A stretch of DNA of 26,851 nt from a virus. A model generated the notes under the pieces. That model saw only the letters and a list, made by a program, of their open reading frames with translations, had not been told where the DNA came from and did not search any database. A program made the translations under genes and the position numbers. Location of the stretch: the IMG/VR virus record IMGVR_UViG_3300020456_000270, positions 1 to 26,851 of that record; one strand, 5' to 3'. Shown here piece after piece: positions 16,045 to 23,580 of this stretch. Position 1 is the stretch's first letter, and the number at the start of each line of letters is the position of its first letter.

Positions 16045-16311
16045 ATGAAAAATATCTTGCCTAAATTACAACAGTACATCACCATAGTAGGGGTAATCAC
16101 TGCTATAGGTGGCGGTTTTTACACCTGGGGACAGTTCAATTTGCGTCTCGATAATATTGAGAAGAAGAAAATTAAAGCAGTTGATTTAACCCCACTTAAT
16201 ACAAGTATTGCTGAACTATCGACAAAGGTCGACAACATAGAACAGAGATTAGATAGAACAGAGGACAGGATTGATAAGCTCGGCAATAACGATAACCCAC
16301 TAGCTAGGTAA
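16045..16311 (+). CDS. Membrane-anchored coiled-coil protein, spanin- or holin-like, 88 aa
   Basis: GGAG lies seven bases upstream of the ATG. A single N-terminal TM (about residues 12-31, ITIVGVITAIGGGFYTW) is followed by a charged heptad-like region (about 45-80, with IAELSTKVDNIEQRLDRTED) that should form a coiled coil outside or inside the membrane. This is the topology of i-spanin or haemolysin-XhlA-like phage proteins. Its place right after the holin-like gene, at the end of the late operon, fits a lysis role (inference). No outer-membrane spanin partner is seen within the frame; the early-block lipoprotein at 23604-23798 is far away. It ends in an eight-base overlap with the convergent primase gene. 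Confidence 0.55.
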   Translation: MKNILPKLQQYITIVGVITAIGGGFYTWGQFNLRLDNIEKKKIKAVDLTPLNTSIAELSTKVDNIEQRLDRTEDRIDKLGNNDNPLAR

Positions 16312-18367
16312 CTTTACCTGCTCTCAATTCCCCATATCCATGAGCAAATGGCCCTTCAGGTACATCAAGGTATTTTGCTTGACCTGTGTTTTCTTTAAGT
16401 CTTGCACGGACAATTTTTCTGTCGTCAATAAGTTCTGATACATATCTTCTGAATGTACTTTGAGATACACCTTTTAACTCAGGAGGCATTTCGCCCTCAC
16501 GAGCTACAAAACCATCTTCGCCTGTAACTGTAAAAGGATTACCTTTTTGTGCTGCTAACTTAATTATTTGAACAAGGCTTCTAAGTCTTATAACTTTATC
16601 CTGCTCGTCTACAACAGATATATCTTGTGAAGTTCCTTCTAATAAACCAGACTCTTCATCTCTAACAAAGATACGAACCTCTCTATTAACAGGACCATTA
16701 GATTTAACAACGGCACCATAAATAACTTTATTCCTTTTAAATGGAACCTCCATTTTATGACAGACTGTTTTAGCCTCACTTTCTGGAGCGGGCCATAAAC
16801 CAATAGCAAAACGAACACCGTCAACAAGTGCCGATGTTCCTCTAATTAAATTTCTTGCATGTTCTGGTGTACGAACAGGATACTTCATATCAATCTTGGT
16901 CATATGATGGACCATGAGAAATGTAGCTTTAGTCTTTGTGGCTAAACTTGCAAAGTATCCTGTTACGAATGCACCATGTGAAGGGTCAGCGTTGATATCT
17001 GCTAGAACAAAACTAGCAAGAGGATCAACAACAACGAGAGCCAAATTATCCATTTGCAATAATTGTCGCTCAATCTGCCGCCACTCATCTGTGATAACAG
17101 GTCGACCGTTTTCGATTGCAACGATAGGAGTAACTCCACCGTGGTCTGGGAAAGGGACAGTATATAATTCACACCCTGTTTCCCTAAATCTACGACCTTC
17201 AGTGTCCAGTTTTTCAATTCGTCTATGTATTTCATCTTTTTCATCCTCTGCGGTTAAAATGACGACATTGCCATTATTTACTATTGTAGCATCAAAGGCA
17301 GTGTCGATGCCGATATTACCATATGCTATCTTCATACCCAAGTCTAAAGTCAAAAGACCTTTACCTGTGTCCCCTGATGCCGCTAAAATACCGGCAACGC
17401 CTTTAGGTAATGTTGATTCTAATAAATATTCATAAGAAGGTGCTTCTCCTTGCACTAAATTTTTAACAGATAATGAGCTATTTAAAAGGTTAACAGGCGA
17501 AGAACCTTCCGTTCTAAGTAATTCATCAATGTCATAACCTTCTTCTATTGCGTCAGCAGCGTCCCAACCCTTTTTCTTTTCTCTTGGTATATCTATTACT
17601 CTGATAGAAGAACATATATCTACAAGGTATTTAGAGAGCTTTTGAGCGTATTTTACGCCAGCATCATCATTATCTGGCCATATAATCAAATGTTTACCTG
17701 TGAGCACACTCCAATCTGTTTTATCTAAATTAGTATTAGCACCACCCATAGCACTTCCTGCTGCTATATTTTTCTTAGATAAATAATCAACACACTTTTC
17801 GCCCTCAACAAAGACAACTGTATCAGCGTCTTTTATGTTTGGTATATTATATAGAGGTCTAATCTCAGGCATTTTATATTCCCCTGTAACTAAACGAGGT
17901 CTAAAAGTTTTTTCTCCATTGCCAGACTCTATTCGCATAACAGTGCATATCAAATCATTGTTACGATCATAATATTTGTATTCTAATGTTTGAGGTTTTG
18001 GTGTTGGCTTAGGTGCTGTATTAATTACAGGGATAGAAAATTTTTCTGATATACCTTTAACAGCTTCAGCAAAGTTACATCCATATACTTTTTGCCATAC
18101 ATCAATAAAGTCACTGAAAGATTGACCACCATTAAATTCGCTACCAACTCCGTCTTTATCTAAATTAAAAGAACAGGAGTCTCCTGGAGCTCCATTTAAA
18201 TCGCCTATAATAAATTCGTTTCCTCTCATTTTTCCTTGAGGAAACATGTGTGTAAATATACTTTTTATTGAGCCTCGTGCTCTATCTTTGAATCCCTTTA
18301 CATCAAATTTCTCTGGCTTATCACGCCCACTTGGGTTGAAGTCCAGTATGCTCTTCTCTTCGTTCAT
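16304..18367 (-). CDS. TOPRIM primase fused to RepA-like helicase, 687 aa
   Basis: Residues about 1-115 form an N-terminal region without a visible zinc-ribbon (no CxxC pair). A TOPRIM domain follows (VVFVEGEKC at about 185-192, PDNDDAG at 231-237). The second half is a RecA-fold ATPase of the RepA/AAA_25 type: Walker A SGDTGKG (about 331-337, ending in Gly where Ser/Thr is usual), LTAEDEKDEIHRRI (about 371-384), Walker B LVVVDPL (about 444-450), MVHHMTK (about 485-491) and IRGTSALVDGVRFA (about 508-521). A winged-helix-like C-terminus (STFRRYVSELIDD) follows. It would prime and unwind at the phage fork. It starts inside the Cas4-like gene (47-base overlap) with GGGAT upstream. Confidence 0.85.
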   Translation of the reverse strand: MNEEKSILDFNPSGRDKPEKFDVKGFKDRARGSIKSIFTHMFPQGKMRGNEFIIGDLNGAPGDSCSFNLDKDGVGSEFNGGQSFSDFIDVWQKVYGCNFAEAVKGISEKFSIPVINTAPKPTPKPQTLEYKYYDRNNDLICTVMRIESGNGEKTFRPRLVTGEYKMPEIRPLYNIPNIKDADTVVFVEGEKCVDYLSKKNIAAGSAMGGANTNLDKTDWSVLTGKHLIIWPDNDDAGVKYAQKLSKYLVDICSSIRVIDIPREKKKGWDAADAIEEGYDIDELLRTEGSSPVNLLNSSLSVKNLVQGEAPSYEYLLESTLPKGVAGILAASGDTGKGLLTLDLGMKIAYGNIGIDTAFDATIVNNGNVVILTAEDEKDEIHRRIEKLDTEGRRFRETGCELYTVPFPDHGGVTPIVAIENGRPVITDEWRQIERQLLQMDNLALVVVDPLASFVLADINADPSHGAFVTGYFASLATKTKATFLMVHHMTKIDMKYPVRTPEHARNLIRGTSALVDGVRFAIGLWPAPESEAKTVCHKMEVPFKRNKVIYGAVVKSNGPVNREVRIFVRDEESGLLEGTSQDISVVDEQDKVIRLRSLVQIIKLAAQKGNPFTVTGEDGFVAREGEMPPELKGVSQSTFRRYVSELIDDRKIVRARLKENTGQAKYLDVPEGPFAHGYGELRAGKVT
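16306..16319. other. Small palindrome at the convergent operon junction
   Basis: AGGTAACTTTACCT is a perfect 6-bp inverted repeat with a 2-base centre, or a 5-bp stem with a 4-base loop, exactly where the + strand late operon and the - strand replication operon run into each other and their stop codons overlap. No T-run follows, so it is not a standard terminator. Confidence 0.35.
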
Positions 18368-19112
18368 TTATATTATCCCAACATTTGTTTTTAAACTCAC
18401 ACCATTTACATAAAAAACTATCACTCTTCGCCGCAACCCTAGGCATCAGTTCGTTGTTCTCAACGGCTTTTAAAATACTAACTGCTGAATCTGACACTCG
18501 CTGAGCCACTTTAGCATCAAACGGTACTTTTTCAAAATATATCTCCTGAGTATTTTTGTTGACAACTGTAAAAAGAGCAGGGTTATCCATTAGGCCCATG
18601 TAAGCCTGGTACAGAACAACCTGAGCGTAATAAACAACATTTGCTTTCTCTACGCCTTTTGATTGAAACTCTTTAAACTTCCTATCGTTAGCGGATTTAC
18701 ATTCCCAAAGAAAAGGATATTCCCAAGAGACAGGTCCATCTGTAATAATGCCATCGACATGTCCTTGTATCTCTCCATCGGCTGTATCAAAGCCAAATTG
18801 TCTTCCTTGTTTATCATGTGTAAGTAAGTTAAATCCTGCTTGCACAAGCCATGCTACGGCAAGCTCTTCAAAATTATGACCGACTTGAAATATTCTCAAA
18901 GTCTTTCCGTCAAAATCTTTTCCCTCATCCTTTTCAGTCTTCATATATCTATATTGTAATTTTCTTTTACAAGGTTCGCCAAGAGATGATGCACCTAAAT
19001 ATTTTCTTTCCGGTTCTCTCTTGTTAGCTTCAACAAGAGCTTTATCTATAAAAGGAGTAATAATCTCACTCACATCTCCTTTATTTTCTGGAGGATTAAA
19101 ATCTAAAGCCAT
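18321..19112 (-). CDS. Cas4/RecB-like PD-(D/E)XK nuclease with Fe-S cluster cysteines, 263 aa
   Basis: The nuclease core is visible: VGHNFEELA (His79), GHVDGIITDG (Asp120), LWECKS (Glu137-x-Lys139) and YYAQVVLYQAYM as a QxxxY-type helix. Four Cys, C48 (GEPCKRK) and C235/C238/C244 (CKWCEFKNKC), have the split one-plus-three spacing of Cas4/AddB 4Fe-4S nucleases. It likely resects phage DNA ends to give single-stranded tails for the neighbouring recombinase. There is no CRISPR array or Cas1 nearby, so this is a phage replication nuclease rather than an adaptation factor. It begins MALDFNP and ends PKWA, short peptides shared with neighbouring replication proteins, and overlaps the primase (47 bases) and the 160-aa gene (10 bases). 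Confidence 0.85.
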   Translation of the reverse strand: MALDFNPPENKGDVSEIITPFIDKALVEANKREPERKYLGASSLGEPCKRKLQYRYMKTEKDEGKDFDGKTLRIFQVGHNFEELAVAWLVQAGFNLLTHDKQGRQFGFDTADGEIQGHVDGIITDGPVSWEYPFLWECKSANDRKFKEFQSKGVEKANVVYYAQVVLYQAYMGLMDNPALFTVVNKNTQEIYFEKVPFDAKVAQRVSDSAVSILKAVENNELMPRVAAKSDSFLCKWCEFKNKCWDNINERREEHTGLQPKWA

Positions 19113-19585
19113 GGTATATCATCATCAAAAGGTTCATGGTATTTTTTGTTTTTACCAGAACCTGTTACTTTGCCTCTTTCTGTTGGTATCTCTACCCCGT
19201 TAACATTAAGAAAATCTTCTGCTTTTTTATCCTCAACACCAATATGTTCATGGAGATGATCTCGATAAGAGTTCAAAGTTGTGATAATAATTTTTTGTAT
19301 TTGTTCTTTAGTAATAGCAGATAGTGGAGTACTCCAACCTATCTCTTCTAGTACTACAGCTAAATCCTTTATAGTGTCATCAACTGCTTTTCTCTCTGGT
19401 ACTAAATCTTGATATGACATTGTTCTTTTTTCCTTATTGTATTTAGACATTAGCTTCATTGCAGCATAACATCCATAAAAACCGACTACTTCATTCTGCT
19501 TAAAATTAACATTATCAAATAAAATGTAAGGCACAACCCTACTATATGAACATAACCCACAGACCCTTCTCCTTTTTAGATTCAT
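19103..19585 (-). CDS. Small Cys-containing protein with SSB-like acidic C-terminal tip, 160 aa (or 105 aa)
   Basis: A first start at 19585 (AAGGGT upstream) gives a Cys-bearing N-terminus (RRRVCGLCSYSR, GFYGCYAAMKL) that could bind zinc. A second ATG at 19420 has a good AAGGA site and would give only the helical part (MSYQDLVPERKAVDDTIKDL onward). I favour the longer form because the N-terminal residues look protein-like. The last residues FDDDIPWL closely mimic the bacterial SSB tail (DFDDDIPF), which binds many repair proteins. No enzyme motif is seen. Its location between the DUF669 gene and the Cas4-like gene points to replication/recombination. It may be an accessory factor competing for SSB-binding partners. 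Confidence 0.65.
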   Translation of the reverse strand: MNLKRRRVCGLCSYSRVVPYILFDNVNFKQNEVVGFYGCYAAMKLMSKYNKEKRTMSYQDLVPERKAVDDTIKDLAVVLEEIGWSTPLSAITKEQIQKIIITTLNSYRDHLHEHIGVEDKKAEDFLNVNGVEIPTERGKVTGSGKNKKYHEPFDDDIPWL

Positions 19586-19601
19586 TATAAACTACCCTTG
19601 G

Positions 19602-19634
19602 TTGTGGAGTTTGTGACAGACAGGCACTCCACAA
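19602..19634. other. Intergenic hairpin between the DUF669 gene and the Cys-protein gene
   Basis: TTGTGGAGT (19602-19610) and ACTCCACAA (19626-19634) form a perfect 9-bp stem with a 15-base loop. It lies in the 86-base gap upstream of the longer start of the Cys-protein gene. There is no U-run on either side, so it may process or stabilise the mRNA, or bind a regulator, rather than terminate. Confidence 0.5.
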
Positions 19635-19671
19635 GCCTGCAATATAGGTCAATGAAGAAAAGACCTTCTGT

Positions 19672-20292
19672 CTAAGCCCAAGCTGGTTTCTCGCCCCCAG
19701 ACTGATCGCTAGTTACTTGTTGTGGGGAGGGTTGTGTATCAGTCTGTGTAGATGGTGCGGGAGCACTAGCCTTGACTGTTCCATCTGGACCTAATGGTTG
19801 TTTATACTCTGGCATGCCAGGAGTTACAACCCTTGATAACCTATTGTTATCTTTGTCGTTATAGGTTTCTATACCTACTTCAACTTTTGCTAATAGATTA
19901 TTTAAGTCCATATAAGATGATAATGTTCTCGCAGCTTTCGCTGGCTCGCTCATATCCTTCGGTTGAATGGCATAACAAGACTCTAATAAAGCACGAATAG
20001 TTCTTTTAGAAATATTACCTGCTTTACTTTGTCCTTTATCATCAAGGCTACCACCGGCTACAGTTAAGTTTGACCAGAATTTTCTTCTTTCAAACTCTCC
20101 TGATGTTACCGTAAATTCGCATTGCAGATATTGTGCGTCAGATCGTTGTGATTGTGTCAACGCTCCGTCAGGACCTGCTCCGCCTGGTTTAATTGTTAAT
20201 ACTGTATCAACAATTGTGCCGTCTGGTATTGGTGAAAAATCAGTTGATGGTCCATCATACTGTTCTTCGGCTGTGTTAAAATCTAGTGTCAT
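19672..20292 (-). CDS. DUF669-family, single-stranded-DNA-binding-like protein, 206 aa
   Basis: The order of elements fits DUF669: N-terminal LDFNTAEEQYD, a strand-rich start with FSPIPDGTIVDTVLTIKPGG, then YLQCEFTVTSGEFERRKFWS (the R-x-F/W strand typical of this fold), NLTVAGGS, and a helix with KRTIRALLESCYAI. The C-terminal 45 residues are Pro/Gln/Thr/Ser-rich and disordered, ending GGEKPAWA, as in SSB-like proteins with a protein-binding tip. DUF669 genes commonly sit next to Sak4-type ATPases, as here, where the two overlap by one base. It probably coats single strands for the recombinase. The family assignment is by motif eye-match only. Confidence 0.75.
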   Translation of the reverse strand: MTLDFNTAEEQYDGPSTDFSPIPDGTIVDTVLTIKPGGAGPDGALTQSQRSDAQYLQCEFTVTSGEFERRKFWSNLTVAGGSLDDKGQSKAGNISKRTIRALLESCYAIQPKDMSEPAKAARTLSSYMDLNNLLAKVEVGIETYNDKDNNRLSRVVTPGMPEYKQPLGPDGTVKASAPAPSTQTDTQPSPQQVTSDQSGGEKPAWA

Positions 20293-21164
20293 TATGCTAC
20301 CTCTTTCTTTTTAGTTTCTTGTGTTGGAATTGTGTGATCAAATTTTTGCGTTACAGTACCGCTCTTAGTTGGCATTAACTTTGTTAATAACTTACCAAGA
20401 TGAGGCTCTTCAATCGCATTAAGAAGACCACTTCTATCTTTAGCTGGATAATTATATTCATTGTCAGTATGACATATAAATTCACGCCATGTTTTACCCT
20501 GCTCATCTTTATTTATGTGCATAGTAATAACTTCATCAACAATGCCTGGTAATTCCCTGCCTGTTTTTGACCCTTCAATCTGTAAAGAATAAACGGTCTG
20601 ATTAAATTCGTCTTGATATTCATCAAGTATGCCGACGAAAATAATATTCTTGTTACGGATGTGCTGTAAATGTGTCAACCAATCCATCATTTCACGACCA
20701 TGTAGACCATAAACTGCAAAGTTATTAATCTTTCTGGTCTTGTCAGTATAAACTTCGTCTTGTTGTTTACACCAACGGAAACATAGACGGCCCGCAACAG
20801 TAATTGAATCAATAAACAATGTTGAATATTTACTTATTGCCTCTGCTGGATCGCCATGTTGCTTAACAAGATGATCGAAATGTGCCTGAGAATATGGCTG
20901 ATCATCTGCAAGACTTGGGTTAGGACCTCCGTAATAACATGCAAAGTCCCTAGCCTCTTGCCAAGTCTTAGGACGGATAGTATCACCTTTCCACCCACCG
21001 TTCTTTTCAAGGGCTAAATCGCCAGCTTCAAAGTCCATAAATAATGTCCCCTCGTCTGGCAATGTATAAAGAAGACTAGTTTTACCAACACCCGCTTTAC
21101 CGGCGATGACAACCTTAGCCCCTTTATCTTCTCTTTGTCGTTCTGATGCTTTAATTATTTTCAT
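20292..21164 (-). CDS. Sak4-like RecA-fold recombination ATPase (AAA_24), 290 aa
   Basis: Walker A AGKAGVGKT (residues 21-29) follows KVVI; a DFEAGDLALE motif (about 44-53) and Walker B TLFIDS (about 115-120) come next, and the polar stretch with EGSKTGRELPGIVDEVITMH (about 215-234) is typical of phage AAA_24/Sak4 proteins. Sak4 proteins are RecA-type single-strand pairing or annealing proteins that work with an SSB. The neighbouring DUF669 protein and Cas4-like nuclease complete the module. The basic C-terminus ends KKKEVA. The start is preceded by GAGAGGTAAAACT, a strong ribosome site also used at other genes of the block. Confidence 0.85.
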   Translation of the reverse strand: MKIIKASERQREDKGAKVVIAGKAGVGKTSLLYTLPDEGTLFMDFEAGDLALEKNGGWKGDTIRPKTWQEARDFACYYGGPNPSLADDQPYSQAHFDHLVKQHGDPAEAISKYSTLFIDSITVAGRLCFRWCKQQDEVYTDKTRKINNFAVYGLHGREMMDWLTHLQHIRNKNIIFVGILDEYQDEFNQTVYSLQIEGSKTGRELPGIVDEVITMHINKDEQGKTWREFICHTDNEYNYPAKDRSGLLNAIEEPHLGKLLTKLMPTKSGTVTQKFDHTIPTQETKKKEVA

Positions 21165-21897: not shown

Positions 21898-21930
21898 TTC
21901 TCTACCTCGCTAATTAATTTATTTATCTAA

Positions 21931-21959
21931 TTTACTTTTTACTTTATTTACGCTATATA
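21931..21959 (+). promoter_or_regulatory. Candidate promoter for the HTH regulator gene
   Basis: TTTACT (21931-21936) and TATATA (21954-21959) are separated by 17 bases and face the regulator gene. The -10 box abuts an inverted repeat (21960-21979). It overlaps the opposed candidate promoter of the replication block, so the two cannot easily fire together. Confidence 0.35.
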
Positions 21960-21979
21960 TTGTTCCGTTTGTGAAACAA
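21952..21979 (-). promoter_or_regulatory. Candidate promoter for the replication block
   Basis: Reading leftward, TTGTTT (21979-21974) and TATAGC (21957-21952) are 16 bases apart, a weak but correctly placed sigma70-type pair about 55 bases ahead of the 163-aa gene. The -35 box lies inside the inverted repeat that may be an operator. Confidence 0.35.
21960..21979. promoter_or_regulatory. Possible operator for the HTH regulator
   Basis: TTGTT (21960-21964) and AACAA (21975-21979) form an inverted repeat around a 10-base centre. It lies between and over the two opposed candidate promoters, the position expected for autoregulation plus repression of the replication block. The match is short, hence low confidence. 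Confidence 0.35.
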
Positions 21980-22000
21980 CTATGGGAGTTTATACTACAC

Positions 22001-22297
22001 ATGATAACCGCAAGTCAACTAAAATTTTCACGAAATATTTTAAGGTTATCCACAAGAGAGTTATGTGCTCTTTCCGGAGTATCGCCTGCGACTATATCAA
22101 GGGCTGAGAATGGAGCCGATGTCAAGTATTCGACTATTAAAAAACTTGCCAAAGTTTTCGAGAGTAAGGGAATAACTTACCCGACTAGTAAGTCCTTAAA
22201 ACACCAAGGAGTGCTCGTTGACTTTGATGATTCTCACAATCAATCATGCGAAACCAAAAATTACCTGAGCGAAGGCTCTTATTTGTCACGCTCTTAA
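22001..22297 (+). CDS. Cro/CI-type (XRE family) HTH regulator, 98 aa
   Basis: Start chosen at the ATG at 22001, because XRE proteins commonly begin MITxxQL and a GGGAG lies 12 bases upstream; an upstream GTG at 21971 would add ten residues that overlap the likely operator. The HTH covers about residues 12-65: STRELCALSGVSPATISRAE, then YSTIKKLAKVFESKGI. The tail (SLKHQGVLVDFDDSH) is short, with no dimerisation or protease domain, so it resembles a Cro-like or anti-repressor-controlled repressor. It is one of only two + strand genes within the early region and is divergent from the replication block, so it likely controls that promoter. There is no integrase in the window. Confidence 0.85.
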   Translation: MITASQLKFSRNILRLSTRELCALSGVSPATISRAENGADVKYSTIKKLAKVFESKGITYPTSKSLKHQGVLVDFDDSHNQSCETKNYLSEGSYLSRS

Positions 22298-22948: not shown

Positions 22949-23152
22949 TCAAGCATTATTTGCAGCGTGCTTTAAACCCCAACATTTAAATGGACCGCAT
23001 TGACCTTCATTGTCTTCAGGTAAACCAGCTCCACAATGCATACAAGTTCTAGACTCTATAGCAATTTGCCTTCTTTCTTCTTCTTCAGCTAATTCAGCTA
23101 GATGATCGTTTTCTGTCATCCAACATTCTTCGTAATCATTTTCATTTATCAT
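22949..23152 (-). CDS. Small zinc-ribbon-like protein, 67 aa
   Basis: The N-terminal half is acidic (EEEERRQ, HLAELAEEEE). Residues 37-57 carry CMHCGAGLPE and then QCGPFKC, giving a C-x2-C-x11-C-x4-C arrangement that should bind one zinc. It ends with a Lys/His/Asn tail. Such tiny zinc proteins in phage early regions can bind nucleic acid or host proteins. It starts after a GAAGG site about 10 bases upstream and follows a terminator-promoter pair, so it may head a separate transcript that continues into the RHH pair. The exact function is unknown. Confidence 0.7.
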   Translation of the reverse strand: MINENDYEECWMTENDHLAELAEEEERRQIAIESRTCMHCGAGLPEDNEGQCGPFKCWGLKHAANNA

Positions 23153-23185: not shown

Positions 23186-23214
23186 TATATATATGTTCCC
23201 ATATAATAAATCAA
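23186..23214 (-). promoter_or_regulatory. Candidate promoter for the zinc-ribbon/RHH transcript
   Basis: Reading leftward, TTGATT (23214-23209) and TATATA (23191-23186) are exactly 17 bases apart, with the start about 10 bases further and the gene about 35 bases away. It sits just after a strong terminator, so it would restart transcription after the upstream early genes end. Confidence 0.45.
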
Positions 23215-23224
23215 GATGTAATGT

Positions 23225-23278
23225 AAAAAAAATGAGGGCCGGCTATGTTGTTAAAGAAGGAAAGGATGTCCGGCCCTC
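23225..23278 (-). terminator. Rho-independent terminator (leftward)
   Basis: GAGGGCCGG (23278-23270 on the - strand) pairs perfectly with CCGGCCCTC (23242-23234), a 9-bp GC-rich stem, and is followed by A then eight T (from 23232 down to 23225). The loop is long (27 bases, pyrimidine-rich on the transcript), which is unusual, but the stem and T-run fit termination of transcripts from the GcrA-like gene. Confidence 0.75.
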
Positions 23279-23367
23279 GCAACGAAGGAACCACAATTAT
23301 ATTGGGATACATAATCGTGGGAGCACCCCATATCTAGTATGTTCGCAACTATCCGTCAACTAGATAT
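23225..23367 (-). ncRNA. Candidate structured noncoding RNA or 3' UTR element, three hairpins
   Basis: Reading leftward, three consecutive hairpins lie in about 145 bases. Hairpin A has a 9-bp stem (ACTAGATAT/ATATCTAGT at 23367-23359 and 23338-23330, 20-base loop). Hairpin B has a 10-bp stem at 23320-23311 and 23300-23291 with one G.U pair that is a mismatch on the other strand, supporting a leftward transcript. Hairpin C is the terminator stem. It lies directly after the GcrA-like gene; the stop of that gene is at the edge of the first loop. It may be an sRNA cut from the 3' end, an attenuator or a bound site. Short chance frames exist on both strands but are poorly supported. Confidence 0.5.
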
Positions 23368-23580
23368 TGCATCTTTTTTCATAAAGTTATATGTAGGTAG
23401 GGTAATTTTTGTTAAATGTGGCGGTCTGTGGGAGGTTAAACCTAATCTATGAACCTTACCAATAACAGAATTTCTTGATATATCACCAAAAATTATAGCT
23501 ATTTCTTTAGCTGTTTTGCCTTCTGCCCATAATTTTTTTAATTTTTCAATGCGTTGATTATCCCAATGTATCCTTGTCAT
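23356..23580 (-). CDS. gcrA-like: GcrA-family DNA-binding protein, DNA-binding domain only (74 aa)
   Basis: Residues 1-48 match the N-terminus of GcrA: MTRIHWDNQRIEKLKKLW, then GKTAKEIAIIFGDISRN and SVIGKVHRLGL, including the SRNxVIGKVHRLGL signature. Host GcrA is about 170 residues with a C-terminal sigma70-binding region; this protein ends at residue 74 after a short Pro/His-rich stretch, so the activating region appears missing. GcrA acts at promoters with GANTC sites methylated by CcrM in Alphaproteobacteria. A DNA-binding-only form could compete with host GcrA or act in phage promoters (inference). AAAGGAG precedes the ATG by about six bases. Confidence 0.85.
   Translation of the reverse strand: MTRIHWDNQRIEKLKKLWAEGKTAKEIAIIFGDISRNSVIGKVHRLGLTSHRPPHLTKITLPTYNFMKKDAISS

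Follow-up and report, generated by a model that had tools for sequence, protein, structure and literature searches.

A previously uncatalogued family of predicted small RNAs 3′ of a gcrA-like gene in marine phages

Within IMG/VR virus records, a conserved intergenic and non-coding element next to a gcrA-like gene represents a small-RNA family of marine phages that is genuine and had not been catalogued before. In the window, as we call the whole 26,851-nt stretch of DNA analyzed here (IMG/VR record IMGVR_UViG_3300020456_000270), the element is predicted to specify a small RNA of about 99 nt (23226..23324, minus strand), which would run leftward from a 5′ end at GCUCCCACG to a 3′ U-tract. Its best explanation, and one that we consider reasonably probable, is a stand-alone, trans-acting small RNA of the phage that carries anti-Shine-Dalgarno motifs and would work like AbcR and NfeR, without being a member of that group.

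Occurrence of the element and the phages that carry it

Relatives were gathered from IMG/VR by means of the GcrA-like protein, the Sak4 protein and short DNA patterns. The element is carried by 25 IMG/VR contigs (the window and 24 others, near-identical contigs counted), with 13 distinct RNA sequences among them; it always lies 3′ of the GcrA-like gene (PF07750), is present in each relative with DNA that extends over the site, and occurs in one convincing copy per genome and no more. Among the loci of the Sak4 group, all 17 that contain a gcrA-like gene have the element, at the identical place and in the identical orientation. The carriers form two clades, A and B, with Sak4 proteins about 70% identical and GcrA-like proteins about 50% identical. 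No Rfam family matched the element at its gathering score, and nothing credible was found there at E <= 5; isolated phages (INPHARED) and plasmids (PLSDB) gave no match, and none came from GTDB genomes scanned for the exact pattern. Nor was it found in searches of more distant Sak4 relatives (about 60%), of other gcrA-carrying phages, or of HTVC023P-type pelagiphages (the first 50 kb of each record).

The phages appear to be mosaic (window 16304-21164; L206:5498-6979), with an HTVC023P-type virion module (TerL, 55-62%) and a WO-like replication module (primase and Sak4). The terminase in the record of L057 is 62% identical to that of Pelagibacter phage HTVC027P and 55% identical to that of HTVC023P, and the replication proteins are nearest to those of Wolbachia phage WO (primase, 38%; Sak4, 53%). 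Judged from these sequences, the host is likely to be a marine alphaproteobacterium; a search of GTDB genomes by Sak4 gave no prophage or host match, and GcrA and small RNAs go unmentioned in the papers searched on HTVC023P-type phages and on pelagiphage transcriptomes. Two other features of the window may be recorded here. A Cro/C1-type HTH protein (PF01381) is encoded by a divergent gene (21930-22297, plus strand) that faces away from the replication genes and has its own promoter-like site, ATTTAC-N17-CTATAT; the region looks like a phage switch. In addition, a 173-aa frame antisense to the primase gene (16914-17435, plus strand) is open in L205 too, the two sequences being too similar to tell coding from non-coding.

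Folding, covariation and conservation

For the 99-nt RNA, which extends from GCTCCC to the T-run, the folding energy is -32.0 kcal/mol, whereas shuffled sequences average -16.0 (z = -5.4) and none of 200 equals it. The opposite strand gives z = -3.0, and the leftward fold is the better one in all 13 distinct versions. Three successive stems and a T8 run had been described on the leftward strand in an earlier note on this DNA, and the sequence confirms them: the arms in the window are ATATCTAGT/ACTAGATAT, CCACGAUUAUGU/AUAUAAUUGUGG and GAGGGCCGG/CCGGCCCUC, followed by T8. Several details of that description have to be revised. Hairpin 2 has two G-U pairs in the window, not the sole imperfect pair that had been counted; the gap, put at about 145 bases, is shorter, the 5′ arm of hairpin 1 overlapping the last codons of the GcrA-like gene; and neither of the two tertiary contacts suggested is conserved, since the GCGAA of GCGAA/UUCGU lies in a variable stretch and the UGGG of UGGG/CCCA is UGGA in L067 and L069.

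Hairpin 2 (23291..23320, minus strand), identified by folding and alignment, has a 12-bp stem and the loop AUCCCA. Ten of its 12 pairs are invariant, one changes from U-A to U-G, and one is a terminal mismatch in one subclade; covariation is absent because the hairpin hardly varies and, as far as sequence comparison goes, this near-invariance is support for selection, not by itself for structure. Next comes the linker UUCCUUCGUU (23281..23290, minus strand), a single-stranded, anti-Shine-Dalgarno-like stretch of 10 nt and a candidate seed, which does not vary among the 17 aligned matches and stays unpaired in every fold. Hairpin 3 (23234..23278, minus strand), the terminator stem, consists of a G+C-rich stem of 9 bp and a 27-nt loop, and here covariation is found. 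Six sequences served to build a covariance model, with which 17 matches were aligned; both-side changes occur in four of the nine pairs of hairpin 3 with 100% of the cells paired, the covariation score of the whole structure is 0.184 as against 0.102 in shuffles (none of 500 reaches it), and pairing falls below 50% when the partners are shifted by 1-3 columns. This alignment is fitted to the structure, but inspection by eye also shows the arms of hairpin 3 in sequences that were not so fitted (GAGGGCCGG/CCGGCCCTC, GGGGGTCGG/CCGACCCCC and GGGAGCCGG/CCGGCTCCC, as well as GGGAGTCGG/CCGACTCCC and GGGAGCCAG/CTGGCTCCC). One change in hairpin 3, from C-G to U-A, is seen in both clades and so probably arose twice. 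All versions keep UCCUU in the loop (23262..23266, minus strand), a second anti-Shine-Dalgarno-like motif, beyond which the loop varies in length and sequence. The terminator is completed by the T8 run (23225..23232, minus strand), and between five and nine T follow the stem in all versions; the covariation of hairpin 3 and the T-run together make this a conserved secondary structure that ends in an intrinsic terminator. The earlier claim of a functional leftward RNA with more structure than a terminator needs is thus supported: it was to be given up if homologues showed no compensatory changes, and the covariance check over related phages found such changes.

Hairpin 2 and the linker hold the most conserved letters of the region. 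Between the window and clade B this block is 96-100% identical, whereas fourfold-degenerate sites in the Sak4, exonuclease and primase genes are identical at a fraction of about 0.32-0.60, and the GcrA-like protein at 49-59%. The gene for the latter (74 aa; 23356..23580, minus strand; PF07750, 57.5 bits against a cut-off of 26.9) is the upstream neighbour of the element; with the small RNA more conserved than this adjoining gene, what matters to the virus appears to be the RNA itself and more than a message's end. A small peptide was considered on either strand, including a 56-aa frame on the opposite strand of the window, and was rejected: the short frames differ between versions, so that selection acts on RNA or DNA, not on a peptide. 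There is strong evidence, in our view, that the leftward RNA is under selection, and we hold this with high confidence.

A putative promoter and the origin of the RNA

Upstream of the RNA, a putative -35 box, GTTGAC (23355..23360, minus strand), and a putative -10 box, CTAGAT (23332..23337, minus strand), fit the pattern [AG]TTGAC-N17-CTA[CG]AT in all 11 distinct versions of the promoter region, at a distance of exactly 17 nt in each. The boxes are 93-95% identical, against an average of 52% over 12 nt of the spacer, the length of which is constant. Alphaproteobacterial σ70 promoters have the consensus CTTGAC-N17-CTATAT (PMC2873474, PMC8844928), to which the promoter of the window has 10 matches out of 12; five sites in the window reach this score where three are expected by chance, and the -10 region motif does not recur in the window above chance. 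The case for a promoter rests on conservation, as the 10/12 score alone is not convincing. In the window, the stop codon of the gcrA-like gene (23356-23358) falls within the block; across the clades, the gcrA frame stops either ahead of the block or within it, and coding therefore does not explain the conservation of the block. Viewed from the gene (window 23356-23580, minus strand, and relatives), it is the end of the GcrA-like C-terminal codons that drifts around a fixed putative promoter.

Farther upstream, the stretch AATATCTA (23361..23368, minus strand) is invariant in 10 versions, although it too lies beyond the end of the gcrA frame in some clades and has that end within it in others. 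Together with the -10 region it forms an imperfect dyad (AATATCTA...TACATAT), a possible operator, and it is this dyad that the earlier note had taken for hairpin 1. As an RNA stem, hairpin 1 was rejected, because in 8 of 10 versions a C-C mismatch replaces the C-G pair at its center and in 7 of 10 one base is deleted, with no covariation. The proposed architecture of three hairpins is thus not kept in the relatives, and the stretch looks more like putative promoter DNA.

From its position over the gcrA-like stop codon, a promoter of this σ70 type would start a leftward RNA of about 99 nt, the 5′ end being placed by promoter spacing, and the transcript would end at hairpin 3 and the U-tract. 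The conserved block begins at GCTCCCACG in all 13 distinct versions. The same region bears on whether the RNA might, as was suggested earlier, be released from the GcrA-like mRNA, that is, be cut by an RNase from the 3′-UTR with no promoter of its own. The element always lies directly 3′ of gcrA, with no terminator between the two, so that read-through must include the element and could also yield the RNA. However, TTGAC and CTA[CG]AT boxes around a variable spacer fixed at 17 nt characterize a promoter and neither an RNA stem nor an RNase site, and it is at GCTCCC, after a short variable stretch, that the RNA proper begins to be conserved. We therefore regard processing from the gcrA-like mRNA as unlikely, and less likely than a promoter of its own. 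To judge from sequence, there is good evidence that the small RNA is a separate transcription unit, which we consider probable.

A promoter, a structured RNA and a terminator are also what the leader of an attenuator would look like, in which hairpin 3 would be a conditional terminator, controlled by a riboswitch or a protein, of a downstream operon; in most relatives, a homologue of orf22407 is indeed located about 210-250 nt downstream. Yet a second putative promoter, CTTGAT-N17-ATATAT (23187..23215, minus strand; 10 of 12 matches to the alphaproteobacterial consensus), is found directly after the terminator, and CTTGAT follows the terminator in the relatives too. The next gene, moreover, differs, being orf22949 in the window and in L057; a search by hand for a conserved alternative pairing able to open hairpin 3 revealed none; and the most conserved part of the RNA is unpaired. 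An attenuator is accordingly improbable. As to the downstream promoter-like block itself, it consists of CTTGAT and then A+T-rich sequence, and CTTGATTATCCCA is common to clade B and part of clade A.

Possible mode of action and known systems

As a stand-alone small RNA, the transcript would have a 5′ hairpin, the unpaired linker UUCCUUCGUU and a terminator hairpin with a long loop presenting UCCUU. These pyrimidine-rich anti-Shine-Dalgarno motifs most likely pair in trans with AACGAAGGA-type ribosome-binding sites and thereby prevent translation, and Hfq, bound to the 3′ U-tail that the RNA has, would probably aid it. The evidence for this mode of action is inferential, and we put it at somewhat better than even. 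The linker is perfectly complementary to the ribosome-binding site of the next gene in the window and in L057, and to that of gcrA in L059 and L061 (AACGAAGGA type). The next gene in the window, orf22949 (22949-23152, minus strand), encodes a small cysteine-rich protein, possibly a zinc ribbon, without a Pfam hit; its ribosome-binding site is complementary to the linker over 10 bp, one G-U counted. The candidate phage pairings are not kept in clade B, no orthologous target was found across the clades, and phage ribosome-binding sites show no enrichment of AACG ahead of AAGGA (5 of 111). Either these pairings are due to chance, or else the conserved partner is a host mRNA. Since the linker is invariant while its candidate phage partners change, a conserved mRNA of the host is the probable main target, and the linker offers a concrete handle: once the host is known, the target should be predictable from pairing with AACGAAGGAA in 5′ UTRs.

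Instead of acting on one mRNA or a few, the RNA might slow host translation in general during infection or serve as a decoy for ribosome-binding sites; the motifs that suggest this are the linker UUCCUUCGUU, the loop UCCUU, which resembles the 3′ end of 16S rRNA, the 5′ GCUCCC and the loop UCCC, and we give it little credence. Still less do we favor a strong intrinsic terminator next to promoter DNA, with an RNA that has no function of its own: hairpin 3 and the U-tract are a terminator by sequence, but hairpin 2 and the linker are dispensable for termination, and plain terminators do not usually have a loop of about 25-30 nt. Least probable of all is a site that acts as DNA (an operator, or a replication or packaging signal), for which the high sequence conservation and the dyad around the promoter could speak. 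Against it, the stems depart from Watson-Crick pairing by G-U on the leftward strand only, bar one terminal mismatch, and hairpin 3 keeps its pairing through both-side changes and is followed by T-runs.

Few phage small RNAs have been described outside enterobacteria, and the examples in the part of a 2025 review that deals with them come mostly from phages of enterobacteria or vibrios, with few others, such as a cyanophage (PMC12197685). The present family belongs to uncultured ocean phages with a virion module related to that of HTVC023P-type pelagiphages, and it indicates that an entire RNA gene can lie concealed in what passes for an intergenic "terminator" of a metagenomic phage genome. 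The cyanophage and marine metagenomic motifs of Rfam (wcaG, manA, glnA, GOLLD and others) are likewise structured RNAs, which comparative genomics brought to light in DNA of marine phages or of the environment; no Rfam family matches the present RNA. Like 3′-UTR-derived small RNAs, it is located at a gene's 3′ end, and gene and RNA share one terminator; unlike them, it has a promoter-like signature over the stop codon, which suggests a promoter of its own. VpdS (VP882), PreS (lambda), DicF and AgvB are, like it, short RNAs encoded by phages, and are described in the same part of that review as Hfq-type RNAs that act on host or phage mRNAs (PMC12197685). These, however, belong to phages of enterobacteria or vibrios, whereas the present RNA is found beside a gcrA-like gene in uncultured marine phages, and we found no sequence relation between them.

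The closest parallel in layout is with AbcR1/AbcR2 (αr15) and NfeR1 of the Rhizobiales, which have motifs in a loop and between hairpins, as does the phage element. NfeR1 is a small RNA of 115 nt, AbcR1 has a σ70 promoter of the type CTTGAC-N17-CTATAT, and in AbcR1/2 one anti-Shine-Dalgarno motif is exposed by a loop and another by the single-stranded stretch that separates two stem-loops (PMC8844928). The AbcR/NfeR motifs are UUCCCCUC and CUCCUCCC, as compared with UUCCUUCGUU and UCCUU in the phage RNA. Membership in AbcR/αr15 was considered and rejected: aSD1 (CUCCUCCC) is absent from the first loop, which reads AUCCCA, aSD2 (UUCCCCUC) is absent between the stem-loops, where the linker is UUCCUUCGUU, and the Rfam families of alphaproteobacterial small RNAs gave no match. 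With different motifs and no Rfam match, the likeness to AbcR is a working analogy, not membership; and whereas AbcR and NfeR are chromosomal, the present RNA is encoded by phages and would act in the way proposed here by analogy with them.
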